Source of the DNA: an uncultured Bacteroides sp.
Lineage (GTDB): Bacteria > Bacteroidota > Bacteroidia > Bacteroidales > Bacteroidaceae
Direction: 5' to 3'
DNA: 64,000 bases
Assembly: GCF_963677715.1 (NCBI RefSeq)
Contig: NZ_OY782495.1
Coordinates: 1,240,001-1,304,000, forward strand
The notes beneath the pieces were generated by a model. The model had not been told where the DNA came from. It worked only from the letters and a program-made list of their open reading frames with translations, and did no database searches. The position numbers and the translations under genes were made by a program. Below are positions 12,026 to 41,176 of the stretch, piece after piece. Position 1 is the first letter of the stretch, and each line of letters starts with the position of its first letter.

Positions 12026-12035
12026 AAGAAATAAG

Positions 12036-26035: not shown

Positions 26036-27268
26036 ATGAGAAAAAGCAGATATAGATTACTCACCCTATTTATGCTCTTTTCTGTTACCGTAATGAAGAG
26101 TTATGCAACGGATGAAGTGCAAGATTCTCTGCGGAAATCATACGATTGGAGTGAAAAATGGTATTATCAAGTTCAAGGCGGAGTCAATCATTTACTTGCG
26201 GAAAATATTAGGTTTGTCAGCTTTGGTAAAACTTTATCACCATCTTATACTTTTGCAGTAGGAAAAAGATTCACACCACTATGGGGTTCACGAATCCAAT
26301 TCTTATACGGTAAGGATAAAGGGGTTTATTATGATCATGACAAAGATAGCCCGATGTTTTCCTTCCGTCATTATGGAATAATAGCGGAAGGGACTTTCAA
26401 CTTTGCCAATTTTGTACGTGGCAACAATATTGTAGGAAGAGAAAAGAAATGGAACCTTGATTTGAAATTCGGGATTGGCTTTATTCATAGTGCTTCCTAC
26501 GAATTAGCAGATGTACAGAACTATAATTTGTTGAATCCTGTACCAAGAGATAATTTCACATTTTATGCCGGAGCAGAAGTTTCTAAAGTCGTTTGCAAAA
26601 ATGTGGATGTCAATTTTGAATTAAGTGCTAACAGATTAGGTAACAGATATAACGGACAAATATGCGGTAATCAAAACACAGAGGTGATTGGAGACATTCT
26701 GACTACAGCCCTTATCGGTATACGCTATACAATCCCTTGCAAAAAACCGTGTAAAAGTACATTTGTATATGTAAATGCCCCATTACCTGCAATACCGATT
26801 AAAGGGAATGTGCCTACAAAGAAAGAAGCGGAAGTAGTGAAAGAAGTCGAAACTGCTGTCCCCCCCCCATGTTATAATATTGATGAACTGCTGTTGATGG
26901 TTAAGCAAGGCAAATCAATCAGAGGGAAAAGACTTTGTGGCATCGAAATGGTACATTTCAATTTTGACAAAAGTGATATAAAACCTGAATTTGCTTTATA
27001 TCTGGACAAATTAGCTACTCTTATGCTGAACTGTCCGGACATCAGGTTGCTGATAATGGGACATACAGACATTAAAGGATCAGTAGATTATAATTACGGA
27101 TTGTCTGAACGCCGTTCAAAAGGGGTTATGGAATATCTAAAGCGGAAAGGGGTGAATTATAACAGAATGATTTATTCTTACTATAGTAAATTGAATCCAA
27201 GAACAGAAAATGTTACGGATTTTGGCAGAAGTGTAAATAGACGTGTGGAATTTATGATATTACCTTAA
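26036..27268 (+). CDS. OmpA-like outer-membrane protein with intact peptidoglycan-binding domain
   Basis: A protein of 410 residues: signal peptide (ending near SYA), a beta-rich N-terminal half with segments nearly parallel to the preceding gene (WYYQVQGGVNHLLAENIRF against WYVQAQGGINYMAAENTRF), and a C-terminal OmpA domain. The latter holds VHFNFDKSDIKPEFALYLDK near residue 305 and MGHTDIKGSVDYNYGLSERR near 340, with the aspartate and arginine that bind peptidoglycan. Such proteins anchor the outer membrane to the cell wall. Their place inside a capsule operon suggests a role in export or surface attachment of the polysaccharide. Confidence 0.83.
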   Translation: MRKSRYRLLTLFMLFSVTVMKSYATDEVQDSLRKSYDWSEKWYYQVQGGVNHLLAENIRFVSFGKTLSPSYTFAVGKRFTPLWGSRIQFLYGKDKGVYYDHDKDSPMFSFRHYGIIAEGTFNFANFVRGNNIVGREKKWNLDLKFGIGFIHSASYELADVQNYNLLNPVPRDNFTFYAGAEVSKVVCKNVDVNFELSANRLGNRYNGQICGNQNTEVIGDILTTALIGIRYTIPCKKPCKSTFVYVNAPLPAIPIKGNVPTKKEAEVVKEVETAVPPPCYNIDELLLMVKQGKSIRGKRLCGIEMVHFNFDKSDIKPEFALYLDKLATLMLNCPDIRLLIMGHTDIKGSVDYNYGLSERRSKGVMEYLKRKGVNYNRMIYSYYSKLNPRTENVTDFGRSVNRRVEFMILP

Positions 27269-27334
27269 AGCTGGTATTTCCACAACCAAGAAAATAACAG
27301 CCGCGGAATTTCATATTTAATATAAGATATAACA

Positions 27335-28513
27335 ATGCAATCACTTCCTAATACAATGAAAATTAGCGGAGCTATCATTATAGAAGGCCATGTACAAGGG
27401 CTTTCTAATGTCCGCTCTCTTGGAGAAAGGGGCATTCCGATATACGTAATAGACGTAAACCATTGTTTGGCTCAGCATTCCAAATACTGTAGAAAATTTT
27501 TTAGATGTCCTGCATTCAGTTCGCCACAGTTCATCGATTTCATATTAAAAATAGGCGAAAACGAACAATTGGATGGATGGGTTCTCATACCGAGTAATGA
27601 CCATATTGTAGAAAATCTGTCTCACAACAAAGAAAGATTAACGCCATATTTTAAGACGATTGTTCCATCTCCGGATATTCTAAATAAAATTATAAATAAA
27701 AAGAATTTGCTTGATGTTGCATTGCAATGTGGAACACCATTTCCAGCGACATGCTATCCGGAAAATCTAAAAATGGTGAAATCGTTCAATTTCCCCATTT
27801 TGCTTAAAGGAAATTATGGCTTGTCTTTTTATAAGGCCACCCATGCTAAAGCCATTCAAGCAAATAACATAGAGGAACTTCATTCCTTATTATCTGATAT
27901 ATTGACTAAAGTTGAACCCAAAAATATAATGATTCAAGAGTTAATACCATTTGATGCAGAAAACAAAGTGGTCTCTTTTACTTGCTTTGCTGAACAAGGT
28001 GAAATAAAGACTTACTGGATGGGAGAAAAATTACGTGAACATCCCATAAAATACGGTACCGCGACTTATAGCAGAAGCATAAACATACCACAAGTACTCC
28101 GTGGTGCTGTTCCTTTGGTAAATAATTTAAGCTACACCGGCGTTTGTGAAATAGAATTTATGCGTGATCCAAGAGACGGAGTTTACAAACTAATTGAAAT
28201 AAATCCGAGGACATGGCTTTGGGTGGGTCTTGCCAAAACTTGCGGTATTGACTATGCATACATGGTTTATGCTTATTTGAATAAGCTTCCCATAAATTAT
28301 GGGATGGAATATACCATAAATATAAAATGGATTAATTGGATCACTGATTTAGTATTCGGCATGGAGTCTATCGTTAAGCATAACATTACGCTAAGAAATT
28401 ATTTAAAATCGCTGAAAGGCAGAAAGGTGAATGCTATTTGGAACTGGAATGATATTATGCCAGGCATTGCATTTCTTTTTTTGTTACTCTATATAGCTAA
28501 AAAAAGAGGTTAG
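27335..28513 (+). CDS. ATP-grasp protein (carbamoyl-phosphate synthase large-chain-like)
   Basis: A protein of 392 residues. The N-terminal preATP-grasp region (GAIIIEGHVQGLSNVRSLGE from about residue 11) and ATP-grasp core (NFPILLKGNYGLSFYK near 155, MIQELIPFDAENKVVSFTC near 200, CEIEFMRDPRDGVYKLIEIN near 270-290, including the ExN metal site) are all recognisable. A hydrophobic tail at 370-388 may touch the membrane. It is the second ATP-grasp enzyme of the locus and, like the first, probably forms an amide on a capsule precursor. Substrate unknown. It may start at the in-frame ATG 27356. Confidence 0.78.
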   Translation: MQSLPNTMKISGAIIIEGHVQGLSNVRSLGERGIPIYVIDVNHCLAQHSKYCRKFFRCPAFSSPQFIDFILKIGENEQLDGWVLIPSNDHIVENLSHNKERLTPYFKTIVPSPDILNKIINKKNLLDVALQCGTPFPATCYPENLKMVKSFNFPILLKGNYGLSFYKATHAKAIQANNIEELHSLLSDILTKVEPKNIMIQELIPFDAENKVVSFTCFAEQGEIKTYWMGEKLREHPIKYGTATYSRSINIPQVLRGAVPLVNNLSYTGVCEIEFMRDPRDGVYKLIEINPRTWLWVGLAKTCGIDYAYMVYAYLNKLPINYGMEYTINIKWINWITDLVFGMESIVKHNITLRNYLKSLKGRKVNAIWNWNDIMPGIAFLFLLLYIAKKRG

Positions 28514-28516
28514 AAT

Positions 28517-29605
28517 ATGAATATACTCATAGCAACAGGACATCCTGCACAGATCCACAATTTCCGTTTGGTTAAGAAACTGTTGGAAGAACATGGACAT
28601 CAAGTGTTTTGGTTATCAACGAACAAGGATATTAGTTTATATTTATTAAACTATTATCATATAGACTATCAACTGCTTAAAAGACCTAAACGAAGTTTTT
28701 TTTCAAAAATAAAAACATTATATAATAATTGTATTACCACACGCGTCCTGATAAAAAAACGTAATATTGATTTTGTCATTAGCCGTATAAATCCGGCAGT
28801 AGTATTAGCCGCATTTATGTCTAATGTTAAGCAAATAGGATTAGCAGATACAGAAGCGTCCGGTATTTATGACGTAGTATTTTCAAAGTTGCTTGGGGCC
28901 GTATTAACCGGAAACTCTTTTGAAAAGGATTTTTCTAAAAATAAGCATATTAGATTTAAAGGTAATATAGAATTATTTTATCTGCATCCGAACAGATTTG
29001 TCACACGGCAAGAAAGCGGACATCAAATTTTAGGAATAGACGCACATACGCCATATATTATTCTAAGATTTGTCGCATGGGAAGCCTATCATGATGTTGG
29101 ACATCATGGCTTCTCTGAAGAAAATAAATTAAAAACTGCAGAAGTTTTTTCACAATATGCCAAAGTCTTTATCAGTTCTGAAAAGCCTCTTGCTCCAGAA
29201 CTTTCAAAATACCAAATAAAAATTCCTTTTGAGAAAATGCATACGGTTTTGAAAGATGCTACCATGTTTTTTGGAGAAGGTGCTTCGATGGCTTCGGAAA
29301 GTGCTGTATTGGGAACCCCGGCTATTTATATAAATGATTTATTGGCTGGCTGTACCAACGAAGAAACAAAATATGGAATTCTTTTTTCCTTTAAACAAGA
29401 TGTAAACAGCCAAAAGTTGTCTATCGAAAAAGGAATTGAATTACTTCAAACAGAAGGTTTAAAAGACATATGGAATATAAAGTTACAATCTTTCTTATCT
29501 GACAAAATAGATGTAACCGCTTTCCTCGTTTGGTTTGTAGAAAAATATCCGGTAAGCAAGAAAATAATGAAACAAAATCCGGACTATCAAAACCGTTTCA
29601 AATAA
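28517..29605 (+). CDS. DUF354-like protein with GT-B/epimerase fold
   Basis: A protein of 362 residues opening with NILIATGHPAQIHNFRLVKK, the N-terminus of the DUF354 family, related in fold to UDP-GlcNAc 2-epimerases and GT-B glycosyltransferases. The nucleotide-sugar-binding end is readable as FFGEGASMASESAVLGTPAI near residue 254. Many archaeal and bacterial polysaccharide loci carry members, but a defined reaction is lacking. It could be a glycosyltransferase acting on the repeat unit. It is separated by 3 nt from the ATP-grasp gene and shares one base with the next gene (TAATG). Confidence 0.72.
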   Translation: MNILIATGHPAQIHNFRLVKKLLEEHGHQVFWLSTNKDISLYLLNYYHIDYQLLKRPKRSFFSKIKTLYNNCITTRVLIKKRNIDFVISRINPAVVLAAFMSNVKQIGLADTEASGIYDVVFSKLLGAVLTGNSFEKDFSKNKHIRFKGNIELFYLHPNRFVTRQESGHQILGIDAHTPYIILRFVAWEAYHDVGHHGFSEENKLKTAEVFSQYAKVFISSEKPLAPELSKYQIKIPFEKMHTVLKDATMFFGEGASMASESAVLGTPAIYINDLLAGCTNEETKYGILFSFKQDVNSQKLSIEKGIELLQTEGLKDIWNIKLQSFLSDKIDVTAFLVWFVEKYPVSKKIMKQNPDYQNRFK

Positions 29606-30378
29606 TGGATTTTACACTTAAAACTTATCACAGTCTTTTGACTGTACTACTCAATGCCGGTTACACCTTTTACACTTTCGAGCAATTTATGTCTGTTCCT
29701 CCAAAAGGTAAGATAGTTGTACTTCGACATGATATTGACAAAAAGCCACAAAATGCTTTAATATTAGCAGAGATAGAACATCAATTAGGCATAAAAGCTT
29801 CTGATTATATCAGAGTGGTAAAAGGGACTTGGAATGAGAATATTATTAGGAAGATTGTAGCCTTGGGACACGAGGTCTCTTATCATTATGAGGACTTAAG
29901 CATTACCAAAGGTGATTATAAAAAAGCATGGGAACATTTTAAAGAAAACATGGCGAAAATTCGTGAATTTTACCCTGCCAAAACAATTTGTATGCATGGC
30001 AGTCCACTCAGCAAATGGGATAATCGCAAATTGTGGGAGAAGTATAACTATCGAGAAATCGGTATTATCGGTGAGCCTTATTTTGATGTGGACTATTCAA
30101 AAGTGCTTTATATCACAGATACCGGTAGAGGATGGAGTAATGCCAAAGTAAGTGTAAGAGATAAAATTGCAAACTCAAATAAGACACTACAGCTAAACAT
30201 CAAGAACACTCAACAAATGATTGAAATGATTGAAAGCAATTGCTTCCCTAATTATATTATTATCAATACCCATCCGCAACGTTGGTTTCCTTTTGGAATA
30301 AACTGGATGAAAGAATTATTGCTCCAAGCATTGAAAAATAGAGTAAAACGAATATTGATTTTAATACGCACAAATTAA
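29605..30378 (+). CDS. Polysaccharide-deacetylase-like protein
   Basis: I place the start at ATG 29605, which overlaps the stop of the DUF354 gene by one base; an upstream ATG at 29530 would overlap that gene by 76 nt. The product has 257 residues. It shows the NodB-type first motif as VVLRHDIDKKPQNA near residue 37, then HEVSYHYEDLS near 90 and ICMHGSPLSKWD near 130, resembling the HxxxH metal site with changes. Such proteins remove N-acetyl groups from sugars. No signal peptide is seen, so it probably acts on a cytoplasmic lipid-linked intermediate, or has another hydrolytic role. Confidence 0.72.
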   Translation: MDFTLKTYHSLLTVLLNAGYTFYTFEQFMSVPPKGKIVVLRHDIDKKPQNALILAEIEHQLGIKASDYIRVVKGTWNENIIRKIVALGHEVSYHYEDLSITKGDYKKAWEHFKENMAKIREFYPAKTICMHGSPLSKWDNRKLWEKYNYREIGIIGEPYFDVDYSKVLYITDTGRGWSNAKVSVRDKIANSNKTLQLNIKNTQQMIEMIESNCFPNYIIINTHPQRWFPFGINWMKELLLQALKNRVKRILILIRTN

Positions 30379-30391
30379 ACAATAACAATCA

Positions 30392-31174
30392 ATGAAACAA
30401 ATCTTTTATATTCTTATAGTCATCACACTATTTTCTTCTTGTACCTCGCAAAAGCAAATATCCTATCTGCAAGATATTCAAGGAGATTATTCAATGAAAA
30501 TTGGACAAAAACAAGATGCTACCGTGCAAACAGGTGATTGGATGTCTATTATAATTAGCAGTAAGGATGCTGAGTTGGCACAAATGTTCAATCTACCTAT
30601 TGTTAGTAATTCGATAGTAGGTAACGAAATCTATTCAGGAGGGACAAACCGCGTGTCAGGCTATTTGGTGGATGAAAACGGTTACATTGACTTTCCGCAA
30701 TTGGGAAGCATTAAAATACAAGGAATGACACTGATAGAGATTTCCTCATTAATAAAAAGAAAACTTATTGATAGAGGATACCTAAATGATCCGACAGTAA
30801 CAACACAATATATGAATTTCAAAATATCAGTGATGGGTGAAGTTGCTCATCCAGGCACATTTAGCATTTCCACGGGAAGAATTACCTTATTAGAAGCATT
30901 GAGTATGGCGGGCGATCTCACCATATTCGGAAAACGGGAAAATGTAAAGGTGATACGTGAAGAGAATGGGATACGAAATGTAGTTAATATGGATTTGAGA
31001 AGCAAGAAGATTTTTAACTCTCCCTATTTTTATCTGCACCAGAATGATATGGTGTATGTGGAACCGAACAAAGTAAGAGCGGGGCAACGGGAAATAAATC
31101 AGAACCGTAGCATAGGAACGTTTGCTTCTATCATATCCGTACTTATTTCTCTCTCTGTCCTAATCTTCAAATAA
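30392..31174 (+). CDS. wza: Polysaccharide export outer-membrane lipoprotein (Wza-like)
   Basis: A protein of 260 residues with a lipoprotein signal peptide (cysteine at residue 17 in LFSSC). The polysaccharide biosynthesis/export domain covers about residues 45-125 (QTGDWMSIIISSKDAE to the GYLNDPTVTTQY region), followed by a SLBB-type domain (VSVMGEVAHPGTFSI-like text near 150). A C-terminal hydrophobic helix is present near 240-258. It should form the outer-membrane channel together with Wzc. The C-terminal helix after the SLBB part is usual for Bacteroidetes members. It lies 12 nt before wzc. Confidence 0.9.
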   Translation: MKQIFYILIVITLFSSCTSQKQISYLQDIQGDYSMKIGQKQDATVQTGDWMSIIISSKDAELAQMFNLPIVSNSIVGNEIYSGGTNRVSGYLVDENGYIDFPQLGSIKIQGMTLIEISSLIKRKLIDRGYLNDPTVTTQYMNFKISVMGEVAHPGTFSISTGRITLLEALSMAGDLTIFGKRENVKVIREENGIRNVVNMDLRSKKIFNSPYFYLHQNDMVYVEPNKVRAGQREINQNRSIGTFASIISVLISLSVLIFK

Positions 31175-31186
31175 CGCACAAAAGGA

Positions 31187-33604
31187 ATGAATGACGATAA
31201 ATTCGCAGACTACGATCTGGTTGACATAAAAAACAAGAAGCAGCCGGAATCGGCTTTGCTAGCGGATGCACTAACCATCTTGCTGAGGTATAAATTTCTA
31301 TTTGCTTTTTGTCTGATAGCTAGTTGCACATTGGGATATGTATATATTCGTACTACTCCGAAAATGTTTATGCGCACGGCTACCATCATGGTGAAAGATA
31401 CTCAAAAGGGCACAGGGTTGATGGAATCACAGACTTTCAATGACGTGTTGACATTGGGTAGCAACTCTGTAGCTAATGAGACAGGCATTCTTAAAAGCCG
31501 GAGGTTGATGTATAAAGTGACGGAACGATTAAAACTGAATGTAAGCTATCGGGCTTTGAATCTAAAGAAAACAGAGCTATACTCCAGCTCACCGATAAAA
31601 GTACATTTCATGAATGAAAATGAAGAGTGTAGTATGGTGGTAAAATTGGCCGGAAACGATGTAATAGAGTTGAGTGAAATCAACGATAATAGAATATCTG
31701 CCATAAATGTGACTGTAGGCAAAATTACAAATACACCTATAGGTAAGATATATATAGAGATGGACTCTATAGGAAAAGCAGAAAATAAGGGGATGGAAAT
31801 ATTGGTAAGCAATGCCCCATTAAAGATCACGGCAAATGCTTTCTGTAATCGATTGAATGTAGGAGCAAATGAAACTCAATCATCATTACTAAATTTGTCT
31901 ATTGTAGATGAGAATCCACAACGAGCGGAAGATGTATTAAACACATTGATTGATGTTTACAACCAAGATGCCATAGATGATAAGAACAAAGTGACAATCA
32001 ACACCGCTAACTTTATAGATGAGCGTTTAAGCATAATTGAAAAGGGACTTGGGCTGGTTGATTCGGAAATAGAAGAATACAAGAAGCAAAACAGATTAAC
32101 TGACCTATCTTCTGAAAGTGATGTTTTTCTGAATAATTCCAATAAACTGGACAATGATGGACTGAGTATAGAGAACCAGTTAAATATGGTAGAATACATG
32201 AAAGCCTACCTGCTAAGAAATGGCAAAGATACAGAAATGATTCCGGGAAGTATTGGTATACAAGACAATGGTATTCTGAAACAAATAACGGATTATAATG
32301 AGATAGTGGCCAAAAGAAACAAACTGCTAGCAAACAGTAGTGAGCGTAATCCGTTGGTGAAAGATATGGACGCTACTCTGAAGTTACAACGGAATTCCAT
32401 TGTCCGCGCGATAGATAATTTACAGACTTCGTTGAAACTTCAGTCCATGAATATGAAGAGTAAGGAACAAGAAACGTATGACAAGATAACGAGTCTACCT
32501 ACCCAACAGAAACAGATTGTTAGCATAGAGAGGCAACAGAAAATCAAAGAGGAACTGTATCTCTATCTGCTGAATAAGAAAGAAGAAAATGAATTGCAGC
32601 AGACCATTGCCGAGAGCAATTGCAAAATTGTAGATGTGGCAGACGGTCCTTCATCTCCTGTATCACCCAATAAAATTCAGGTTATATTGATTTGCCTGAT
32701 AGCGGGATTTTCTATCCCCTCTTTGTTGCTTTACTTGAGAATGCTACTAAATACGAAAGTATATCTGAAAGAAGACATCAAGGATAAAGTGTCCATTCCA
32801 TTCCTGGGCGAAGTACCTTTTGACAAGGTTAGTGAAGAAAAAGATATAAGGATTTCGGAAGATAGTGCCCACGAACACCTTAACGAGGCTTTGAAAATAG
32901 TACGTGAGAATCTGAACTTTATAAACGGAAAGCAAGACGAAAAAGGAAAAACGGTTCAATTAATCTCATTCAACCCGTCATCGGGAAAAACTTTCATTAC
33001 CATAAATCTTGCCGTCAATATAGCAAGCTCAAATGCCAAGGTGATAGCACTGGACTTGGACTTACGAAAAGCATCATTGAGCAAGCGTTTAGGATTCAGC
33101 ACAAAACAAGAGGGAATATCAAACTATCTGTCAGGAGATGCAAATAATATACAGACATTGATACATACTGTTAACGCAGATAATCTGAGTTTTGACGTGA
33201 TTTCTTCGGGAGTCATTCCGCCGAACCCTTCCGAACTATTGAAAGACACACGACTGGACAAACTGATGGAATTTCTAAAACAGGAGTATGATTATGTGCT
33301 TTTCGACAATCCGCCTTACGGATTGTTGGTGGATGCCTTTGTCTGTTCGCGCCTCGCCGACCACTCCATCTATGTCATCCGCTCGGGCATGTTTGACAAA
33401 CGTCTGCTACCTGATTTGCAGGAGTTGTATGATTCCAATAAACTAAAACACCTAAGTATCATACTAAACGGAGTAGACTATAAAAAGATGGCATATAGCT
33501 ATAAGTATGGCTACAGTTATCACTATCACCACTACAAGAAACAACATGAGAAGCAAAGAGGATGGAAGAACCTTTACAGTAAGCTTTTTGGAGATAAATA
33601 TTAA
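31187..33604 (+). CDS. wzc: Polysaccharide co-polymerase with BY-kinase domain (Wzc-like)
   Basis: A protein of 805 residues controlling chain length and export. The order is a first membrane helix near residues 38-56, a long periplasmic coiled-coil region, a second helix near 504-526, and a cytoplasmic tyrosine kinase. The kinase has a Walker A in FNPSSGKTFITINLA (about 598-608), Walker A' in VIALDLDLRKA and Walker B in VLFDNPPYG. It ends in a tyrosine-rich cluster (YSYKYGYSYHYHHYK), the autophosphorylation tail. All parts for function are present. The peptide cassette begins only 11 nt after its stop codon, so read-through transcription is likely. Confidence 0.95.
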   Translation: MNDDKFADYDLVDIKNKKQPESALLADALTILLRYKFLFAFCLIASCTLGYVYIRTTPKMFMRTATIMVKDTQKGTGLMESQTFNDVLTLGSNSVANETGILKSRRLMYKVTERLKLNVSYRALNLKKTELYSSSPIKVHFMNENEECSMVVKLAGNDVIELSEINDNRISAINVTVGKITNTPIGKIYIEMDSIGKAENKGMEILVSNAPLKITANAFCNRLNVGANETQSSLLNLSIVDENPQRAEDVLNTLIDVYNQDAIDDKNKVTINTANFIDERLSIIEKGLGLVDSEIEEYKKQNRLTDLSSESDVFLNNSNKLDNDGLSIENQLNMVEYMKAYLLRNGKDTEMIPGSIGIQDNGILKQITDYNEIVAKRNKLLANSSERNPLVKDMDATLKLQRNSIVRAIDNLQTSLKLQSMNMKSKEQETYDKITSLPTQQKQIVSIERQQKIKEELYLYLLNKKEENELQQTIAESNCKIVDVADGPSSPVSPNKIQVILICLIAGFSIPSLLLYLRMLLNTKVYLKEDIKDKVSIPFLGEVPFDKVSEEKDIRISEDSAHEHLNEALKIVRENLNFINGKQDEKGKTVQLISFNPSSGKTFITINLAVNIASSNAKVIALDLDLRKASLSKRLGFSTKQEGISNYLSGDANNIQTLIHTVNADNLSFDVISSGVIPPNPSELLKDTRLDKLMEFLKQEYDYVLFDNPPYGLLVDAFVCSRLADHSIYVIRSGMFDKRLLPDLQELYDSNKLKHLSIILNGVDYKKMAYSYKYGYSYHYHHYKKQHEKQRGWKNLYSKLFGDKY

Positions 33605-33615
33605 AACTGTCACCG

Positions 33616-34728
33616 ATGAAACGCACTTTTCATGAAACAGTATTGTTTGATTTGCTGAAGATTTCTCTTTGGAACCAAGGGGCGATTATCAATTATGCCA
33701 ATCTTGCAGAGGAAGACTGGAAAGCAATTTATCAACTTGCAGCCGAACAGGGAGTACAAAGCTTAGTATTTGATTCTATAATCCAGCTTCCTGAAAAGTG
33801 GCGGCCAGAGGATACACTACTGTTAATGTGGGCAGCCAATACAAAACTACAAGAGCAGAGATTTATGCGTAATGTAATGGCGACAAATCAGTTGAACGAA
33901 ATTTTCAAAGCTCAGGAATTAGAAATATTGCTGCTCAAAGGAGTAGGATTGGCGATTTTCTATCCGAACCTTTTATATCGAGAGTTTGGAGACATCGACA
34001 TCTATACGAATGACCATAAGAAAGCAGACAACATCTTGCTGCAATACGGTGAACAGACACGAGAACACCCGAAACACAATGTTTTCAAATTTAAAGGAAT
34101 TCCGGTAGAGAATCACAGAAATTTTATCACTTTAATAAAAGGTACAGACCTTTTCAGCAGGAAGCGAAGAAAGGCATTTGAAACAGTAGAGAAAGAATTG
34201 CATGATATTCTGAAAGATGAAGGGAGTTTCCTCTTCAGAACTTACGATAACTTAAGAGTGCCTTCCGCTACATTCAATTTTCTCTTTTTGCTGATGCACA
34301 CCGGAACGCATTTAGGAGGAGAATTAGTCATGAGGCATTTATGTGATTGGGCTTGTTTCTTGAGCACCAATCAGGGAAGATATAATGAAAAGCGAATTGA
34401 AACAACACTGGGACTATTGAACTTCCGGAAGATATGCTTTCTGATGACGGATACGGCAATCCGATACTTGGGAATGCCTCCTGAATTTGCTCCTTCTTTT
34501 TATCGGAAAGAGAGCCGGGCAAGACTGAATGAAAGGTTTATGAACAGCCTATTTCATAGGTTCCCTGGTTCTAAGGAAGTAAGAAAGAATACATTATGGT
34601 GTAAGTGGAGAAGGTTTTATAGCAAACAATGGAAATATGATTTGCTCTATTGTGAGTATCTGCCTGAAAGGTTGGTACGCACTCTGATACTTTGGTATCA
34701 AGGATATAAAGGAAGAATGTTTAAATGA
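33616..34728 (+). CDS. Nucleotidyltransferase-family protein of the peptide cassette
   Basis: A protein of 370 residues matching the 'uncharacterised nucleotidyltransferase' type: EILLLKGVGLAIFYPNLLYR near residue 95-120 and the acidic pair in GDIDIYT at about D126 and D128. Members accompany PqqD-like and HprK-like genes in several lasso-peptide clusters, where they are thought to modify the peptide. They also occur alone in exopolysaccharide loci. The gene starts 11 nt after wzc and 21 nt before the small peptide gene. Whether it serves the capsule or the peptide cassette cannot be decided from sequence; context favours the cassette. Confidence 0.78.
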   Translation: MKRTFHETVLFDLLKISLWNQGAIINYANLAEEDWKAIYQLAAEQGVQSLVFDSIIQLPEKWRPEDTLLLMWAANTKLQEQRFMRNVMATNQLNEIFKAQELEILLLKGVGLAIFYPNLLYREFGDIDIYTNDHKKADNILLQYGEQTREHPKHNVFKFKGIPVENHRNFITLIKGTDLFSRKRRKAFETVEKELHDILKDEGSFLFRTYDNLRVPSATFNFLFLLMHTGTHLGGELVMRHLCDWACFLSTNQGRYNEKRIETTLGLLNFRKICFLMTDTAIRYLGMPPEFAPSFYRKESRARLNERFMNSLFHRFPGSKEVRKNTLWCKWRRFYSKQWKYDLLYCEYLPERLVRTLILWYQGYKGRMFK

Positions 34729-34749
34729 TTAATTTTAAAAATTACAATT

Positions 34750-34923
34750 ATGGAAAAAGAAGATGAAAAAAAGAAGGAAGAAATGCTGCAACACGCCCAA
34801 AAGAAAGAAACTTTTGAACCGTTGGAAATGAAAATAGTAGATGTGAAAGTAGAAAAAGGTTATGCTACTTCAGGGCATAATGATCCTGTCACAATTCAAC
34901 AGTGGAAAAATGGTAATTGGTAA
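34750..34923 (+). CDS. Small peptide, candidate precursor of a modified exported peptide
   Basis: A frame of 57 residues (ATG 34750, TAA 34921-34923). The first 20 residues are highly charged (MEKEDEKKKEEMLQHAQKK). A hydrophobic/acidic middle follows (FEPLEMKIVDVKVEKGYATS), then a polar tail rich in N, D, Q, W and G ending in tryptophan. It has no cysteine and no signal peptide. The division into a charged leader-like half and a distinct tail, the strong placement just ahead of PqqD-like, kinase, peptidase and ABC exporter genes, and the serine and threonines of the tail fit a ribosomally made precursor. Its stop overlaps an upstream ATG of the next gene's frame. Function is inferred, not shown. 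Confidence 0.65.
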   Translation: MEKEDEKKKEEMLQHAQKKETFEPLEMKIVDVKVEKGYATSGHNDPVTIQQWKNGNW

Positions 34924-34937
34924 TAAAAAAAGCAATT

Positions 34938-35882
34938 ATGAGAATAAAATTATTATTAGGCTTGAGTCTGTTTGCTATCTTGGCAATGGACTGTATATCT
35001 GAAACGGACACGCCAAAGAGTAATGATAAGATTACGCGCATCTATGTAGGAACGGCTAATGCTAAGTCGAGAACCTTAACCGATGCTTCTACAGCTGAAG
35101 TGACTTGGAAAGATGGTGACGAGATTGCAGTGTTCCATATAAATGGTAGTGGACGAAGTGATTATAAACGCTTTCTATTATCTTCGGGTGCCGGCGAACA
35201 GTCGGCCTATTTTGAAGGCGTTACAGCAGATGACTATCTTACAGCTGGAGAGACGTATAAGGTAGCTTATCCTTATTCTTCAGTAGAAGAGTACGATGGA
35301 GATAACAATATCTTTAATATGCACGCTAATATAAGTGCAAGCAACAACACTGACCATTTGGCCAATCACAATTGGCTTGTTTCCGGTAACCGCGTCATAC
35401 CAACGGATGGAACAATGCCTTCTTTCTCTCTTGCACAAATCACAGCTCTTGCGAAAATTCGTCTGGATATTGACAACTTTACGGTAACAGGTCTAACTAA
35501 CAGACGTTATTTGACTAATGTAAACTTCACAATAGCAGATGCAACAAAGGCATTCTATAATTATATCTATTGGAATGAAGACTTAGACGTTACAGCATAC
35601 GAACGTTCAGAAGTTGCTACGGCAGGATTTTCAAATCAAGTCCAAATCGTTAATAATAGCTCCTATTATTATTGGGTGCCTATTATGCAAGAAACTTCAA
35701 GCGGTATTAAACAGTTAGACCTGTCTGTCCATTGGAGAGATGGAAACAATGTAGATTATTCAAGCGTTGTAGAGTATACGCCAAAGAGTATGTTTGTTCC
35801 GGGATATATTTATAATGTACATTTAATTCTGACTTTTACAGAAAATAGTGGAAATAGTGGCATACTAAGTTTGGTAGAGTAG
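34938..35882 (+). CDS. Fimbrillin-like (Mfa-like) surface protein
   Basis: The start is placed at ATG 34938 because the earlier ATG at 34917 lies inside the small peptide gene; this gives 314 residues. A signal peptide ends in AMDC (C19), a lipobox with an unusual aspartate before the cysteine. The mature part has the fimbrillin-like pattern SRTLTDASTAEVTWKDGDEI near residues 45-65, FSLAQITALAKIRLDI near 160-175 and a C-terminal VPGYIYNVHLILTF strand. Bacteroidetes fimbrillin-like proteins are lipoprotein precursors that assemble on the surface. Its position between the peptide and the modification genes is odd for a stalk or tip fimbrial locus. Confidence 0.8.
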   Translation: MRIKLLLGLSLFAILAMDCISETDTPKSNDKITRIYVGTANAKSRTLTDASTAEVTWKDGDEIAVFHINGSGRSDYKRFLLSSGAGEQSAYFEGVTADDYLTAGETYKVAYPYSSVEEYDGDNNIFNMHANISASNNTDHLANHNWLVSGNRVIPTDGTMPSFSLAQITALAKIRLDIDNFTVTGLTNRRYLTNVNFTIADATKAFYNYIYWNEDLDVTAYERSEVATAGFSNQVQIVNNSSYYYWVPIMQETSSGIKQLDLSVHWRDGNNVDYSSVVEYTPKSMFVPGYIYNVHLILTFTENSGNSGILSLVE

Positions 35883-35907
35883 TGTAATTATTCGATCATG
35901 TCAAATT

Positions 35908-36177
35908 ATGTATATTAGAAAAGAATACCAATTGCAGACCATAGCCAGCAAGAATTTTATCTTTCTTCACAAAAGTGGGGAAGTGGATATGACACGCATC
36001 TTGTCGTTCAACAAAACATCTGTCTGGCTATGGCAACAATTGTCAGAAAAAGAGTTTACCGAAGAGGAGGCATTGACTTTGTTGTGCGAACACTATGAGG
36101 GAGACATTTCACAAATAAAACAGAATCTAGAATGGTGGATAGAGTCGTTAATAGAAGAAGATGTCATTGTGAAGTAG
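35908..36177 (+). CDS. PqqD-like peptide-recognition protein (RRE domain)
   Basis: A protein of 89 residues with the PqqD fold: a beta-rich first half (LQTIASKNFIFLHKSGEVDM) then helices (SVWLWQQLSEKEFTEEEALT and ISQIKQNLEWWIESLIEEDV) with the typical NxTxxxLWxxL pattern read as NKTSVWLWQQL near residues 35-45. PqqD-family RRE domains bind leader peptides of ribosomally made natural products and deliver them to modifying enzymes. It is free-standing here, 25 nt after the fimbrillin-like gene and about 107 nt before the kinase gene. Confidence 0.85.
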   Translation: MYIRKEYQLQTIASKNFIFLHKSGEVDMTRILSFNKTSVWLWQQLSEKEFTEEEALTLLCEHYEGDISQIKQNLEWWIESLIEEDVIVK

Positions 36178-36284
36178 CTTTTTGACATGCTGATAAATAC
36201 ATTCTCAATCTTAACTAGGAGAACTGGTTTTCGTTGTTTGTCCCTCGATGCACATTAGTCCCTTTTATGTTCTAATATCAAAAG

Positions 36285-37154
36285 ATGGAAAACTATTATA
36301 GTATAGCTGGGCATTTAGTTTGTATTGTTTGTGAAAGCCCTACGGTGATGCTAGCCCTTTCAGAATTTGAGGCGTTTCAGGTTTCGGGTTCCGAATCAGA
36401 ATCGGGTAACACGGATATAATCGTGACTTTGCAAGAAGATACACCTCAATCTGTTCAGGGCACTCTATATCACACACTTGTGACCGATGTTGCGGTTTCT
36501 CGTTTTTACAACTCGGCAGAGGTCTCAGGAATGGAAATTTGGCAGTGTGAACGATTGCAATTAACAATGCGGTTCAAACATGGCAGTCAAGAGTGTTTCA
36601 TACAAGGAAACTTGTCGCCATTGTTACTTCGCTTTGCTTTGTGGGCCGCTTTCAATATAGCGGTCATCGGTCGTCAGACGGTGGCTATTCATGCTTCGGC
36701 AGTTATCTATCAAGGCCGGGCATTCCTGTTTTTGGGTGAATCGGGTACAGGTAAAAGCACACATACCCGACTGATTTGTCAGCATTATCCCCAAGCGGAA
36801 TTGCTGAACGACGACAGCCCTATTCTTAGGATTGAGCACGATAGATGTATGGTTTACGGTTCGCCTTGGAGTGGAAAGACATCTTGCTATAGACAGTGTA
36901 AGGCTCCTTTGGGTGGAGTGGTTAGGCTTCATCAGTCGGTAGTAAATAAGATTTCACGATTGCCTGTACATCAAGCAATCGGTGCTTTATTGCCCTCTTT
37001 CCCCCCAGAATTGTATTTATGCTATGGTAGTCAGTCCAAAGTCTTAGCTATCATTTCGGAAATCATAGAGCAAGCCCCTGTTTATTCCTTGCAATGTCTT
37101 CCTGATAAAGAGGCAGCCGAAATGTCAGTTGAAACCATAACGAAATCTTTGTGA
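36285..37154 (+). CDS. HPr kinase-like P-loop protein
   Basis: A protein of 289 residues. The P-loop GESGTGKST lies at about residues 151-159, preceded by IHASAVIYQGRAFLFL. Acidic LLNDDSP follows near 176-182, then GSPWSGKTS near 195. This order matches HprK-type kinases that act on the serine or threonine of a small partner, including those of lasso-peptide clusters (paeninodin type). The N-terminal 100 residues are not a recognised HPr-sensing domain. It follows the PqqD-like gene and abuts the peptidase gene. A likely role is phosphorylation of the precursor peptide; this is inference. Confidence 0.78.
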   Translation: MENYYSIAGHLVCIVCESPTVMLALSEFEAFQVSGSESESGNTDIIVTLQEDTPQSVQGTLYHTLVTDVAVSRFYNSAEVSGMEIWQCERLQLTMRFKHGSQECFIQGNLSPLLLRFALWAAFNIAVIGRQTVAIHASAVIYQGRAFLFLGESGTGKSTHTRLICQHYPQAELLNDDSPILRIEHDRCMVYGSPWSGKTSCYRQCKAPLGGVVRLHQSVVNKISRLPVHQAIGALLPSFPPELYLCYGSQSKVLAIISEIIEQAPVYSLQCLPDKEAAEMSVETITKSL

Positions 37155-37156
37155 AT

Positions 37157-37615
37157 ATGGAAGAAATCGATAACAATTGGTTGTTCCGGCAGGTTGAGAT
37201 AGCCTTGAACACTAAAAAACGAGTAAAAATCCGTTTGATGGGAGAAAGCATGTATCCTTTTCTAAATTCAAGGAGCGACATATTGGTCATTGCCCCATTT
37301 ATTTCAGAAACTGTGCGCGTGGGCGATGTGGTATTGGCTAAGGTCAACGACCAATATGTTCTTCATCGGCTTATTGAAAAAAAAGAGCAGGGATGGTGTA
37401 AGTTGCAGGGTGATGCAAACATGAAAAAACAAGAGTTGGTGCATGTGGGAAATATTATTGGACGATTAGTACAGATAGAACGAAATGGGACACAAACGAT
37501 AGATTGTCTCTCTAAAAAGTGGCAGTGGTATGGACGATGCTGGATAAAATTAAGATTCTGCAGAACCTATTTGTTGAAAATTATTTTATGGAAACGCCGT
37601 GCCATAAAGAAATGA
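37157..37615 (+). CDS. S26-type (signal-peptidase-like) processing peptidase
   Basis: A protein of 152 residues, start taken as ATG 37157 (a GTG at 37151 would overlap the kinase stop). The motif GESMYPFL places the serine nucleophile at S31. GDVVLAKVNDQYVLHRLI has histidine H70 where bacterial signal peptidases have the catalytic lysine. LQGDAN places an aspartate at D86. This Ser/His arrangement is the S26B (ER/archaeal) kind. No membrane anchor is evident at the N-terminus, but a hydrophobic stretch near 137-145 (TYLLKIILW) could attach it. It probably trims the cassette's peptide. Confidence 0.8.
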   Translation: MEEIDNNWLFRQVEIALNTKKRVKIRLMGESMYPFLNSRSDILVIAPFISETVRVGDVVLAKVNDQYVLHRLIEKKEQGWCKLQGDANMKKQELVHVGNIIGRLVQIERNGTQTIDCLSKKWQWYGRCWIKLRFCRTYLLKIILWKRRAIKK

Positions 37616-37622
37616 AGTGGTA

Positions 37623-39260
37623 ATGGGAAAATATGAAAAAATAAGAAGCATATATCAGGCATTACCCGATAAAACTCGTGTATGTGGTATTTGGGTGCTA
37701 ATCTGGATTGTGATAAGATCCTTGTTCGATTTTATAGGAATAGCAAGCGTCCTATCTGTTGTATATTTCTTGATCAGAAAGGAATATATGAATTATGCGC
37801 TATGGGTTATAGCATTGTGCTTTGCGATTTTGCTTATTAAAATGGTCGCATTACATTACATCGACAAGTATTGTATGCAATGGTATTTATCCATTTATAA
37901 GTATTTTTCAACGTCTGTTTTATTGAAGTATTATCAGAGTGGTTTGCTATTTATCCGAAAACAGGGTATCGCAGATTTAACTTATAACACAAACGGTATC
38001 TGTTATGCTTTTACTACACTTGTTATTCCATCCATTTTACAGTCGGCAGGCAACATCTGTTTGATCATTGTTTTTATGATCTGTTTTTTGATCTTTTCTC
38101 CTTATGTAGCTTTATTGTTTCTGTTTTTTGTCAGTTTGTTTATCGTGGCTTATGTGTGGCTCGTAGGGAAAGACATTTCGCAAATTGGTAAAGAGGAGAT
38201 AGAGGCAAAAAAAGGGCAGTGGGAAACCGTACAAGATTGTTTCAACGGGTATGTGGAGATGGAAATATATAATGCTTTCCCTTATTTCATGAAGCGTTTT
38301 ATAAAAGGCATTAATGCGATTATCTCCTGCCAAAACAGGATGAAAATAAAAACAGAAATACCCGCTTATCTTCTGGAAATGATGATGCTAGTACTTTTGA
38401 TAATTGTCTTTCTTATTAGTCACAGTACAGAAGAATTAGTCCTGTTGTTGAGCGCTGTATCAATAGGTGTTTTTAAAATATTGCCATCCATAAAGCAAAT
38501 TATATCGGGATATAACACGTTGCAGAATCATTTATGTACGATCGATATTCTTTACGATGCCATAAACCTACAATGCGAATCTTTGAAAAGAAGCAGAAGT
38601 GTAATCTATAAAGATACAATAAAGTTCAATGATGTTGATTTCTATTATGATAAACAAAATCAAGTGTTGAACAGAGTGAATATTGAGATAAAAAAGGGTG
38701 AGCGAATAGGAATTCAAGGTGAATCAGGTTTTGGAAAAACAACATTGCTAAACGTTTTGCTCGGATTTCTTGATCCCAACAATGGTCAGGTGTTGATAGA
38801 TGAGACCAATTTGGCAGACATGAATTTACAGATGTGGCATCAACAGATTGGCTATGTTCCGCAAGAGGTGTTTATCGCCGATGATACCATCGCTGGAAAT
38901 ATTGCATTCGGATTATCTCATGAAAAAATGAACGAACAAAAAATATATGAGGTCTTAAAAATAGTGCAACTCTATGATTGGGTAAAAGCTTTACCTCTTG
39001 ACATAAATACACGCATTGGCGAGAATGGCTGCTTGGTATCGTGCGGGCAGAAACAAAGGCTTGGAATTGCACGGGCGTTGTACAAAAAGGCCCAACTACT
39101 GATCCTTGACGAAGCTACTTCTGCGTTAGATGAGGTGACTGAAAAAAATATATTGAGTATCATTGATAGATTGACGGAAAAAGATTCGGGACGAACTTTA
39201 ATTATGGTTTCACATAATAAATATTCAATGAAAATGTGTGAAAGATTTATTAACATATAG
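37623..39260 (+). CDS. ABC exporter (membrane and ATPase domains fused)
   Basis: Start taken at ATG 37623 (an upstream GTG is the alternative), giving 545 residues. About six transmembrane helices occupy residues 20-310, then the ATPase: Walker A GESGFGKTT near 370, Q-loop GYVPQEVF, a signature that reads VSCGQKQR instead of LSGGQ, Walker B LLILDEATSALDE and the switch histidine in MVSHNK. There is no N-terminal C39 peptidase, so cleavage must be done by another enzyme, fitting the S26-type gene 8 nt upstream. It would export the modified peptide. A terminator follows at 39475. Confidence 0.88.
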   Translation: MGKYEKIRSIYQALPDKTRVCGIWVLIWIVIRSLFDFIGIASVLSVVYFLIRKEYMNYALWVIALCFAILLIKMVALHYIDKYCMQWYLSIYKYFSTSVLLKYYQSGLLFIRKQGIADLTYNTNGICYAFTTLVIPSILQSAGNICLIIVFMICFLIFSPYVALLFLFFVSLFIVAYVWLVGKDISQIGKEEIEAKKGQWETVQDCFNGYVEMEIYNAFPYFMKRFIKGINAIISCQNRMKIKTEIPAYLLEMMMLVLLIIVFLISHSTEELVLLLSAVSIGVFKILPSIKQIISGYNTLQNHLCTIDILYDAINLQCESLKRSRSVIYKDTIKFNDVDFYYDKQNQVLNRVNIEIKKGERIGIQGESGFGKTTLLNVLLGFLDPNNGQVLIDETNLADMNLQMWHQQIGYVPQEVFIADDTIAGNIAFGLSHEKMNEQKIYEVLKIVQLYDWVKALPLDINTRIGENGCLVSCGQKQRLGIARALYKKAQLLILDEATSALDEVTEKNILSIIDRLTEKDSGRTLIMVSHNKYSMKMCERFINI

Positions 39261-39268
39261 TTGAAACA

Positions 39269-39412
39269 ATGAAGAGAGCGGGTGATTTTGATGGGACAAT
39301 CGCTCATTTTACATACCCTAAGATTGGTAAAGAAATAACATTCGCTATAGAAACACTTAAACTTCTACAAAGTGAGTATCACCAGATCATATTATAGACA
39401 GTTCGTGAATAA
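39269..39412 (+). pseudogene. HAD-family hydrolase start, broken by two stop codons
   Basis: Starting at ATG 39269 the frame contains DFDGTIAHFTYPKIGKEI and ETLKLLQSEYHQIIL, then TAG, then TVRE, then TAA. This is the N-terminus of a small HAD-type hydrolase; the motif DFDGT is the nucleophile motif, and the usual continuation is LWTVREG, with W replaced by a stop. No further homologous sequence follows. It lies 8 nt after the ABC exporter, at the right end of the capsule and peptide region. Confidence 0.7.
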
Positions 39413-39474
39413 TTTGTTGTATCATATCATTACTATCTCATTAAAAAAACACTCCCCAATAAATTGTGTAAATG

Positions 39475-39510
39475 ATAACTCGGGTCTTTAGATTCGAGTT
39501 ATTTTTTTAT
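39475..39510 (+). terminator. Rho-independent terminator after the peptide cassette
   Basis: Stem ataactcg (39475-39482) pairs perfectly with cgagttat (39495-39502) around a 12-nt loop, followed by an uninterrupted run of t. It is placed to end the long plus-strand transcript of the capsule and peptide genes. The rest of 39413-39628 shows no gene. Confidence 0.75.
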
Positions 39511-39628: not shown

Positions 39629-40882
39629 TTACACTTTTACAAAATCAGACAGCATACTTTCAATCAATTTTTCATTAATCCCCAACTCCTTTGCATACCC
39701 TTCAAATTGTGCAATTGCATTGGCAACAGTATCGAGCAAAGCTTTATAATCTTGTATGTCATTGTTTAGACCTACTGTTTCTAAGTCTTCACGGGTAATA
39801 TTTTCGTTCTTGCCATTCACTGTCAATGAATGCGTATTGGAATAAGCTGGCGCAGTGGGGTCGACACTATAGGTTAGATCGTAGGCAGGTGATAACCGCC
39901 AAGCTCCATCACGATTCATGCAGAATGAAAAATTCTTTGAATGGTCATCTACATTTCGGGCAATAACGTTAAACACCATCCGTAGGTATTGCTGTTTGCT
40001 ATCCTCGTATGGTAAATGAAGCCGTCTGATTACGGCAAAAAGATCTTCATAGCTATCGCTTGTTAGTGACATGGCAGCTAGCGTTTGCGTATGCACTTTA
40101 TCGTTTCCGATACGGTCGAATCGTTGAGTCAGAAAATGTGTTACGTTGCCGTATGTACGGAGTTCTGAAGGCATCATCTCAATTCCGGCATCCAAAGCCA
40201 TCCGATAATAAATATATTCTAGTTTGGCGAAAGGATAAGCAGAATTATCATCATATTTAAGAATATAATGTTGAAATCCTTCTGGAATTACTCCTTGGCC
40301 TGAAATGACTTCTTCTGTGGTTTGGTTTAACGCTACAATGGCTTTCGGACGTTTTCCTCCGGGTGAAGAACTTAGCTCTACTAAATCTTGCCACAAAATA
40401 GAATTTTCCTGATTTAAAACGGTTGTCTCTCTTTCGTTCAGCACTTGCTTAGCAAATGCATATAGTTTTTGAACATCTACGGCAAAAGTAGAGTTATTGC
40501 CCAGCTTATGGGCCGGCTCATATTCTAAAGCTCCCATTGCCCGACTATCGATAAATGAGAGATGGTCTACGGGGGTGGTTGTCTTTATCGAAACATGATT
40601 GTCTCTTAACCACGCCTTGAAAAGTGAGTTGCCCCATTTGTCGGGTAGCGAATCGGCAATCATTGGCGGAAGTCCTTGATAAAGTTTCTCTTTGTCACCT
40701 GTCCATGGCAGTTGCTTTTGGCTGCGGGGAGAATTTATAGACATCGTTAATGGTGCAATATCTAATCCTCGCTTAAGGAACGAAGGCTCATATTCAAAAA
40801 CAGCTACTCCTGCTTCCTTATCCCATGAAAGATAACCAACATCCATTCCCCATAACTTGACTTTTACCACATTTGTTTCCAT
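39629..40882 (-). CDS. hipA: HipA-family serine/threonine kinase toxin
   Basis: A protein of 417 residues, full length for the family. N-terminal domain (VKVKLWGMDVGYLSWDKEAG), then SSPGGKRPKAIVALNQT near residue 173, and the kinase core with the catalytic NVDDHSKNFSFCMNRD near 312 and AYDLTYS near 335. HipA toxins phosphorylate an aminoacyl-tRNA synthetase, as E. coli HipA does with GltX, and cause growth arrest. It forms a two-gene operon with the HipB-like antitoxin 3 nt upstream. An 84-nt piece of the same gene occurs again at 7921-8004. All core residues seem intact, so it should be active. Confidence 0.9.
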   Translation of the reverse strand: METNVVKVKLWGMDVGYLSWDKEAGVAVFEYEPSFLKRGLDIAPLTMSINSPRSQKQLPWTGDKEKLYQGLPPMIADSLPDKWGNSLFKAWLRDNHVSIKTTTPVDHLSFIDSRAMGALEYEPAHKLGNNSTFAVDVQKLYAFAKQVLNERETTVLNQENSILWQDLVELSSSPGGKRPKAIVALNQTTEEVISGQGVIPEGFQHYILKYDDNSAYPFAKLEYIYYRMALDAGIEMMPSELRTYGNVTHFLTQRFDRIGNDKVHTQTLAAMSLTSDSYEDLFAVIRRLHLPYEDSKQQYLRMVFNVIARNVDDHSKNFSFCMNRDGAWRLSPAYDLTYSVDPTAPAYSNTHSLTVNGKNENITREDLETVGLNNDIQDYKALLDTVANAIAQFEGYAKELGINEKLIESMLSDFVKV

Positions 40883-40885
40883 ATC

Positions 40886-41176
40886 TTATTTTTTGTTTTG
40901 CTTCTTGAATAGTTCTCGTGGGCTGGCAGGTAATTCGGGCAATAATTTTTCAATCTCTTCCAAGCTGTCTATTGCTCGAAGTAGTTTGATGAATGAGGCC
41001 AAAGTTATTCCGGTAGAAGAACCATTCTCAAAAGAGCTGATAGTAAATATACTCAAACCGGATTTTTCTGCAACTTCTTTTTGCGTATATCCCATCCGCT
41101 TTCGGTAATCAGAATATCGTTTACCAAATTCCCTAATTATATCGCTCCCTGATTTCTCGTATAATTCTCTGTACAT
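40886..41176 (-). CDS. hipB: HipB-like antitoxin, helix-turn-helix regulator
   Basis: A protein of 96 residues with a Cro/C1-type helix-turn-helix at about 24-60 (YRKRMGYTQKEVAEKSGL, then ISSFENGSSTGI). It binds and neutralises HipA and represses its own promoter. It is first in the operon, 3 nt ahead of hipA. Upstream are a strong Bacteroides promoter and two palindromic sites that probably are its operators (41202-41217 and 41243-41258). Length is slightly above that of E. coli HipB (88 residues). Confidence 0.88.
   Translation of the reverse strand: MYRELYEKSGSDIIREFGKRYSDYRKRMGYTQKEVAEKSGLSIFTISSFENGSSTGITLASFIKLLRAIDSLEEIEKLLPELPASPRELFKKQNKK

Follow-up and report, generated by a model that had tools for sequence, protein, structure and literature searches.

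A seven-gene array behind capsule genes of an uncultured Bacteroides sp. as a probable relative of the linear polyphosphorylated peptide pathway

Introduction

Directly behind the capsule genes for Wza and Wzc, an uncultured Bacteroides sp. (NCBI RefSeq assembly GCF_963677715.1) carries an array of seven genes which, in our reading, probably encodes a Bacteroidales form of the pathway for linear polyphosphorylated peptides (LPPs), a group of ribosomally synthesized and post-translationally modified peptides (RiPPs); we put this reading, with its chemical steps inferred, at about three chances in four. The array lies in a stretch of 64,000 nucleotides, hereafter the window (contig NZ_OY782495.1, positions 1,240,001 to 1,304,000). 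LPPs were reported by Popov et al. in May 2026 and are called restricted to Bacillota in that paper (PMC13381572). There, the lpp cluster from Paenibacillus alginolyticus is described to direct the kinase-dependent polyphosphorylation of one serine, and the peptidase LppS, in which residues of the Ser/His/Asp type were tested, to cleave the leader together with LppB (PMC13381572). A preliminary description of the window had presented the system as undescribed, which can no longer be upheld, since the same five-gene core is in print as LPP, with the kinase and peptidase steps tested (PMC13381572). An LPP-type system of Bacteroidota was not found in print in the one open-access library searched. 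The further proposal of the preliminary description was that of a leader-guided, possibly phosphorylated or nucleotidylated peptide, which a signal-peptidase-like enzyme would trim before export. On homology to the tested LPP system, leader-guided modification, trimming and export of a peptide are well supported, and the peptide is probably phosphorylated.

Results

The enzymes of the array

All seven genes (window 33616-39260) lie on one strand and adjoin the gene for Wzc, with gaps of 11, 21, 14, 25, 107, 2 and 1 nt, as the preliminary description of closely spaced, co-directional genes had it (Table 1).

Table 1. Features of the array and its immediate surroundings, in window coordinates.
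Feature	Position	Strand	Basis
Wza, capsule export	30392-31174	+	Poly_export 2.6e-14
Wzc, chain-length control	31187-33604	+	GNVR, AAA_31 and Wzz matches; directly 5' of the array
PF14907 nucleotidyltransferase (LppN-like)	33616..34728	+	PF14907 E=7.9e-37
57-aa candidate precursor peptide	34750..34923	+	relatives' profile, array position, paired RRE change
Secreted, perhaps lipid-anchored protein with fimbrillin-like N-terminal region	34938..35882	+	weak similarity to lipoprotein-like ORFs
PqqD-type RRE (LppB-like)	35908..36177	+	PF05402 E=4.9e-8
HprK-like kinase (LppK-like)	36285..37154	+	AlphaFold2 model and Foldseek; motif residues
S26-type (archaeal/ER signal-peptidase-like) leader peptidase (LppS-like)	37157..37615 (or GTG 37151)	+	Peptidase_S24 1.2e-5
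Peptidase-less ABC exporter (MsbA/PglK-like)	37617..39260	+	ABC_tran 7.6e-32
Terminator-like hairpin, then T run	39474..39503	+	13-pair stem, 214 nt beyond the ABC gene
RRE, RiPP recognition element; ORF, open reading frame; ER, endoplasmic reticulum; ABC, ATP-binding cassette.

For the counts of catalytic residues, the top match of each locus was aligned, provided that it exceeded a score limit. The Lys, Gly and Arg residues and both Asp residues of the DxD-type motif are present in all 36 aligned nucleotidyltransferases. The sequence of the HprK-like kinase alone gives no Pfam HPr-kinase match, its scores with HprK-related models of NCBIfam fall far short of the respective cut-offs, and a search of genome_contigs returned no relatives; an AlphaFold2 model built from an alignment of 29 sequences (predicted local distance difference test, pLDDT, 92.4) is matched in Foldseek by phosphoenolpyruvate carboxykinase (E = 5.5e-8) and by HprK/P (E = 3.3e-6). 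The Walker A Lys (74/74), His136 (73/74, with one gap), the first Asp (71/74) and the second, Asp177 (74/74), are conserved among its relatives. The S26-like protein is matched by an archaeal signal peptidase I model at 1.8e-10, which is under the cut-off of that model, and weakly by SEC11 (E of 0.05 and more), and its Ser31, His70 and Asp86 are kept in 79 of 79 aligned matches. Membrane segments are usually called at a Kyte-Doolittle mean of 1.6; the highest 19-residue mean of the protein, starting at residue 42, is 1.67, and its membrane anchoring is thus undecided. The best NCBIfam models for the exporter are PglK and MsbA (MsbA at 8.4e-68), both far below their cut-offs, and no peptidase C39 is among its Pfam matches.

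A profile of 18 RREs, including that of the window, matches the solved lasso-peptide RREs TfuB1 (5.7e-8) and TbiB1 (0.001), while searches of the PDB with the window RRE or with the profile did not return the LppB complex. Two alignment columns, equated with N33 and D70 of LppB by way of the lasso RRE alignment and the text of the paper and not by the LppB sequence, are strongly conserved: column 35 is Asn in 62 of 65 proteins, the window (Asn35) and a Butyrivibrio protein being part of the set, and column 73 is Asp in 62 and Glu in two, the Asn of the window (Asn73) standing alone. The same genome holds two further PqqD-domain genes outside the cassette (L004, 9610-9960, and L005, 9576-11054; L numbers denote our loci), one of them, as judged by eye, beside a major-facilitator-like transporter and the other a 492-aa ORF with a weak match to the radical-SAM profile.

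Recurrence of the cassette in relatives

A search of 61 genomes with the kinase found it in 19, including its own. Twenty-two stretches covering the 23 other kinase matches were fetched. A further 59 surround matches of the S26 profile A2; of these, 57 come from a scan of the order, and two belong to genomes which share the class but not the order. Some loci are cut by contig ends. Altogether 84 loci were scanned and 83 gave any profile match (L005 to the radical-SAM profile only). All five core enzymes, i.e. nucleotidyltransferase, RRE, kinase, S26 peptidase and exporter, are present in 32 of these 83 loci, at least four in 56 and at least three in 71. The neighbourhood of PqqD, HprK, S26 and ABC genes which the preliminary description proposed to look for in relatives does therefore recur. 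The core genes share one strand in 54 of the 71 loci, and both order and strand vary. Together with the peptide controls given below, which were without matches, this recurrence shows that the array is not due to chance.

Across the order, the S26 profile matches 60 of 393 genomes (E<=1e-8), and 51 of the 61 underlying loci hold at least three core genes; the remaining ten may include ordinary signal peptidases. Among genomes of the phylum outside the order, 22 of 392 match at E<=0.001 and five below 1e-30, the strong form thus being rarer there. In five distant loci (L027, L056, L057, L066, L076) an S24/S26 domain is fused to the exporter. A radical SAM/SPASM protein adjoins the peptide, PqqD, S26 and two kinases in L024, an ORF similar to it occupies a similar setting in L026, and weaker matches to the radical-SAM profile are found in L081 and L083. 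Kinase, S26 and (by eye) PqqD are consecutive in Prevotella oral taxon 299, and a plasmid of Phocaeicola massiliensis gave a kinase match only. Outside the phylum, plasmid pNP243 of Butyrivibrio fibrisolvens (Bacillota) carries consecutive genes for a kinase, a 57-aa YVKPEL peptide, PqqD and an S24/S26 protein; with this kinase and peptidase as tblastn queries, no other record from Bacillota was found among plasmids.

The precursor peptide family

The window peptide consists of a leader part, FEPLEMKIVDVKVEKGYATS, and a tail, GHNDPVTIQQWKNGNW, the boundary between them being our estimate. A regular expression first yielded eight such peptides including that of the window; one of the eight was shortened so as to begin at an internal start. 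An iterated profile run over the 9635 small ORFs located within 8 kb of core genes then matched 31 peptides, one in each of 31 loci, and 30 of the 31 were recovered when left out of the profile. Neither the five shuffled sets nor the reversed set gave a single match, ruling out that these ORFs were picked up by chance. At loci with at least three core genes a peptide was detected by profile in 30 of 71 cases, and in 11 of the 32 five-gene loci; one more peptide was seen by eye in L068 and several of a looser YQxPEL kind in L081. The latter (11392-12592) are small, have tails with Cys, Ser and Gly, and lie between two radical-SAM-like genes near S26, nucleotidyltransferase and ABC genes.

Of 78 peptides compared, 75 have the motif YxxP, two are too short or cut, and the window has Phe in place of Tyr (FEPL), its position being set by the C-terminal register. 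All 76 readable peptides have a Ser or Thr in the span between +17 and +22 relative to the Tyr, and in 59 a Ser stands at +19 or +20. The tails, on average 21 residues long, abound in G, S, D, N and P, contain Cys in only three of 76 cases, and have an aromatic residue within the last eight positions in 68 of 76, compared to a mean of 44 and a maximum of 57 after shuffling. In LppB, D70 is reported to bond the Tyr of the leader, and N33 to bond the kink formed where the Pro stands (PMC13381572). At the position of D70, 25 of the 27 RREs whose locus includes a peptide carry Asp, one carries Glu, and that of the window carries Asn. The change from Asp to Asn in the window RRE matches the change from Tyr to Phe in the window peptide, and the two may have varied together; this is suggestive only, since there is but one such case and the search for peptides was biased towards Tyr.

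Genome-wide co-occurrence and scattered precursors

The peptide profile (A6) also matches 60 of the 393 genomes of the order (E<=0.01; a few matches contain stops). Peptide and S26 peptidase occur together in 48 genomes, each alone in 12 and 12, and neither in 321 (Fisher p = 9.4e-39), and after removal of the 19 genomes that supplied training peptides the numbers are 29, 12, 12 and 321 (p = 2.7e-24), statistics which ignore relatedness and treat the two samples of 393 genomes as one, on the agreement of their identifiers. From this co-occurrence we conclude that the precursors often sit away from the cassette. The preliminary description had proposed to test whether a short variable peptide gene is always found upstream: the peptide does recur with the cassette, and it adjoins it in no more than the 30 of 71 loci given above. 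It had also named the absence of the peptide gene from otherwise like loci as a finding that would speak against the proposal; such absence is in part what is seen locally, and the genome-wide co-occurrence answers it.

Peptide matches number 15 in two genomes, eight in one, five in one and four in two; 40 stretches around scattered copies were fetched from six genomes, which does not cover every copy of each. In one genome (L119-L129) the scattered precursors are mostly without lipoprotein neighbours, and many end in a sequence of the LWGDDE or WSDFEN type. Such C-terminal ends may hint at a second recognition site.

Lipoprotein-like genes as possible partners

The preliminary description had named the product of window 34938-35882 a fimbrillin-like lipoprotein. 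A weak N-terminal similarity (E of 3e-7 to 2e-6, in three of 99 other genomes) remains of this, and Cys19 is common to the four proteins aligned; no Pfam match was found up to E=1, the structure model is unusable (pLDDT 32.7), and the lipobox, LAMDC, has Asp at -1 before the Cys. Asp is unusual at this position of a lipobox. The protein is a possible surface partner of the peptide.

Elsewhere, such pairs are seen in part of the family. In two related genomes a lipobox gene follows the peptide on the same strand within 200 nt on its 3' side in nine of 14 and eight of eight cases, as compared to a background of 78 among 958 genes of at least 200 aa (8.1%, positives included). For the cassette peptides the proportion is 12 of 31 (binomial 2.7e-6); in the window and in L020 the lipobox departs from the pattern, and these two were therefore left uncounted. 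A third genome shows the pairing in one of 16 cases, and three others together in none of nine; precursor-lipoprotein pairing therefore belongs to part of the family only. The partner proteins resemble each other at the N-terminus. A scan of 22 of them gave a Pfam match over the cut-off for five (Big_2 in three, leucine-rich repeats, LRR, in two), weak matches only for three (one of them Lcl_C) and none for 14, and labels such as fimbrillin-like and lectin-like are our own reading of these proteins.

Discussion

Likeness to LPPs and the case of the window peptide

The cassettes share with LPP clusters the five enzyme families, the Ser-His-Asp triad of the S26 peptidase, an MsbA-like exporter and, in some cases, the setting in a capsule locus. 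Their short precursors resemble those of LPPs by a variable tail behind a leader with YxxP (FEPL in the window), albeit in a different spacing, and their RREs by the Asn and Asp positions as equated above (Asp replaced by Asn in the window). LPP clusters are reported there with one to three precursors each and with the leader consensus YxxPxVLxHQxIxFETxxS followed by a variable C terminus (PMC13381572). The Bacteroidales cassettes differ by belonging to another phylum, by precursor genes which are scattered over the genome and number as many as 15, and, in part of the family, by the pairing of precursor and lipoprotein; neither these precursor features nor the S26-ABC fusions and radical-SAM neighbours found here are mentioned in the part of the LPP text at hand.

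Several points weigh against our reading. In window-type peptides the aromatic residue ahead of the conserved Ser stands at +16 from the Tyr, as opposed to +13 in LPPs, and the FET cut motif of LPPs is absent from the Bacteroidales peptides, so that the LPP cut site is not transferable. In the published host, deletion of lppN is reported without detectable change (PMC13381572). The likeness of the families may or may not reflect common descent with the Bacillota LPP clade, and because the leader spacing differs, the cassettes can be placed among the LPPs proper only tentatively. The window peptide, moreover, is the sole miss of the leave-one-out test (E=15 with the all-family profile), which weakens the case for it as an ordinary family member; its sequence has no match of its own in 60 other genomes, its Pro is displaced by one position, and 41 of the 71 loci have no neighbouring peptide by profile.

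It might accordingly be asked whether the machinery is LPP-like and the 57-aa ORF is not its substrate, the precursors being encoded elsewhere and the ORF being a relic or an unrelated small gene. Precursors far from the cassette in several relatives, the cassettes lacking a profile-detected neighbour and the divergence of the window peptide, the highest in the leave-one-out test, all fit this alternative. On the other hand, the ORF is the sole peptide-profile match in its genome at E<=0.01 (5.1e-12, having itself been in the profile), it is co-directional within the array, and the RRE change matches its Phe. A profile of eight hand-picked relatives from which the window peptide was left out finds it at E=0.0039 among the 9635 ORFs; the first 22 matches of this search (E up to 2.7) are all cassette peptides, and the first other follows at E=6.9. 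We thus consider this alternative rather unlikely and keep the window peptide, on the hand-picked profile and the RRE change, as a candidate precursor and putative divergent member of the family.

The capsule locus and neighbouring genes

A second alternative is that kinase, nucleotidyltransferase and exporter act on the capsule, for example to yield a phospho- or nucleotidyl-decorated polysaccharide, with the peptide being incidental. The array lies directly 3' of the genes for Wza and Wzc, Wza or Wzc is located within 65 nt of a core gene in L021, L023, L028, L085 and L086 as well, and PglK and MsbA are the best models of the exporter. In L028 the order is nucleotidyltransferase, kinase, Wza, Wzc, peptide, lipoprotein, another secreted protein, S26 and ABC, with no PqqD found there. 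In L017 and L071 Wza or Wzc lies some kb away, and it is also present in L025 and L042, which hold fewer core genes. However, in only eight of the 71 loci with at least three core genes does the fetched stretch include Wza or Wzc, without a peptide there would be no evident need for an RRE and a leader peptidase, and the co-occurrence of peptide and cassette speaks against a role in the capsule alone. We therefore regard this alternative as improbable, and the link to the capsule drawn in the preliminary description as overstated.

Upstream of Wza, window 26036-30378 encodes an OmpA-family protein, an ATP-grasp-type protein (PF02786), one protein without Pfam match and, by eye, a polysaccharide deacetylase, genes which are likely part of the capsule locus. 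Downstream of the ABC gene, a short ORF (39269-39397) resembles the start of a haloacid-dehalogenase (HAD)-type protein and looks like a remnant; a longer HAD-type protein of the same kind adjoins a kinase and Wza-Wzc in L025 (2912-3349). The hairpin that had been taken to close the array exists, but it lies beyond this remnant, and terminator-like sites in the region (5, compared to 3.2 with a standard deviation of 2.1 in shuffles) are barely above expectation. Further on, on the minus strand, follows a HipA-like protein (39629-41176; HipA_C 1.1e-42) with a HipB-like helix-turn-helix gene directly upstream.

Comparison with other peptide systems

A cryptic cluster for a phosphorylated lasso peptide of the paeninodin or pseudomycoidin type would share the PqqD-type RRE, the HprK-like kinase, the nucleotidyltransferase and the YxxP/WxxP leaders (PMC13381572, PMC9266682), and would need its cyclase and B2 peptidase to act from elsewhere. 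Unlike such clusters, the cassette has an S26 peptidase and neither macrolactam cyclase nor B2 cysteine peptidase, in agreement with the preliminary description. In the genome of the window, the one B2-like match (PF13471) is below its cut-off (22.5 of 26 bits) and on another contig than the cassette (C1:562k), and the asparagine-synthase matches (PF00733), at C1:401k (a 561-aa frame) and C3:668k (E=2e-5, over the cut-off), are far from the cassette, the former on another contig and the latter at a distance of about 0.6 Mb. No cyclase was seen in the gene maps of the relatives, which were not profile-scanned for it. With neither family matched near the cassette in the genome of the window, we reject this explanation as very improbable.

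The peptidase of peptidase-containing ABC transporters (PCATs) is of the C39 type. The five fused loci resemble the PCATs of Bacteroidales RiPP clusters in that leader removal and export would be coupled; they differ by the S24/S26-type serine peptidase domain and by YxxP-type leaders, those of PCATs having a GG motif (PMC10352776). The maturation protease of nickel-type superoxide dismutase (TIGR02754) is likewise an S26-like maturation peptidase and is matched weakly (E=1e-4, below the cut-off). Its substrate is an enzyme precursor and not an RRE-bound peptide. Export of the substrate by the Sec route and cleavage by a membrane signal peptidase is not favoured either, as the N-terminal part of the precursors is charged, their leader has YxxP, and five loci encode the S26 domain in one protein with the exporter; given its hydropathy of 1.67, the S26 protein may nonetheless be membrane-anchored.

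Proposed pathway and significance

Gene content, families, catalytic residues, recurrence and co-occurrence are observations; from them, and from homology to the tested Paenibacillus system, we infer a course of events for the LPP-type pathway, with the residue modified, the place and membrane side of the cut, export and the role of the partner. The leader of the precursor, with its Tyr/Phe-Pro motif and alternating hydrophobic residues, would add a beta strand to the RRE on binding. The kinase of HprK type would then phosphorylate the conserved Ser some 19-20 residues past the Tyr (Ser41 in the window peptide), and the NTP_transf_5 protein might decorate the phosphoserine further with a nucleotide or a sugar. 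Given the RRE-bound leader, the S26-type Ser-His-Asp peptidase would cut it off near the segment VEKGYATS, and the ABC exporter would move the linear, Cys-poor tail out, with the product of the adjacent lipoprotein-like gene as a possible surface partner.

More tentatively, it might be speculated that one central machine of RRE, kinase, nucleotidyltransferase, S26 peptidase and exporter matures many scattered peptides, many of which are made with their own surface lipoprotein, for peptide display rather than as classical bacteriocins. The lipoproteins would then consist of a fimbrillin-like base and an immunoglobulin-like, lectin-like or LRR head, and the modified peptide might be a dedicated partner of the adhesin-like surface protein and, in capsule-linked cases, of the cell envelope. 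We regard this as possible, if doubtful at present.

The scattered precursors, their pairing with lipoproteins elsewhere and the S26-ABC fusions go beyond the preliminary description. The fusions point to a coupling of leader removal and export. Should our reading hold true, an LPP-type RiPP pathway that was called restricted to Bacillota in 2026 would extend to Bacteroidales, and the scattered precursor-lipoprotein pairs would offer a handle on the role of these peptides, the function of LPPs being left open in the original paper (PMC13381572).

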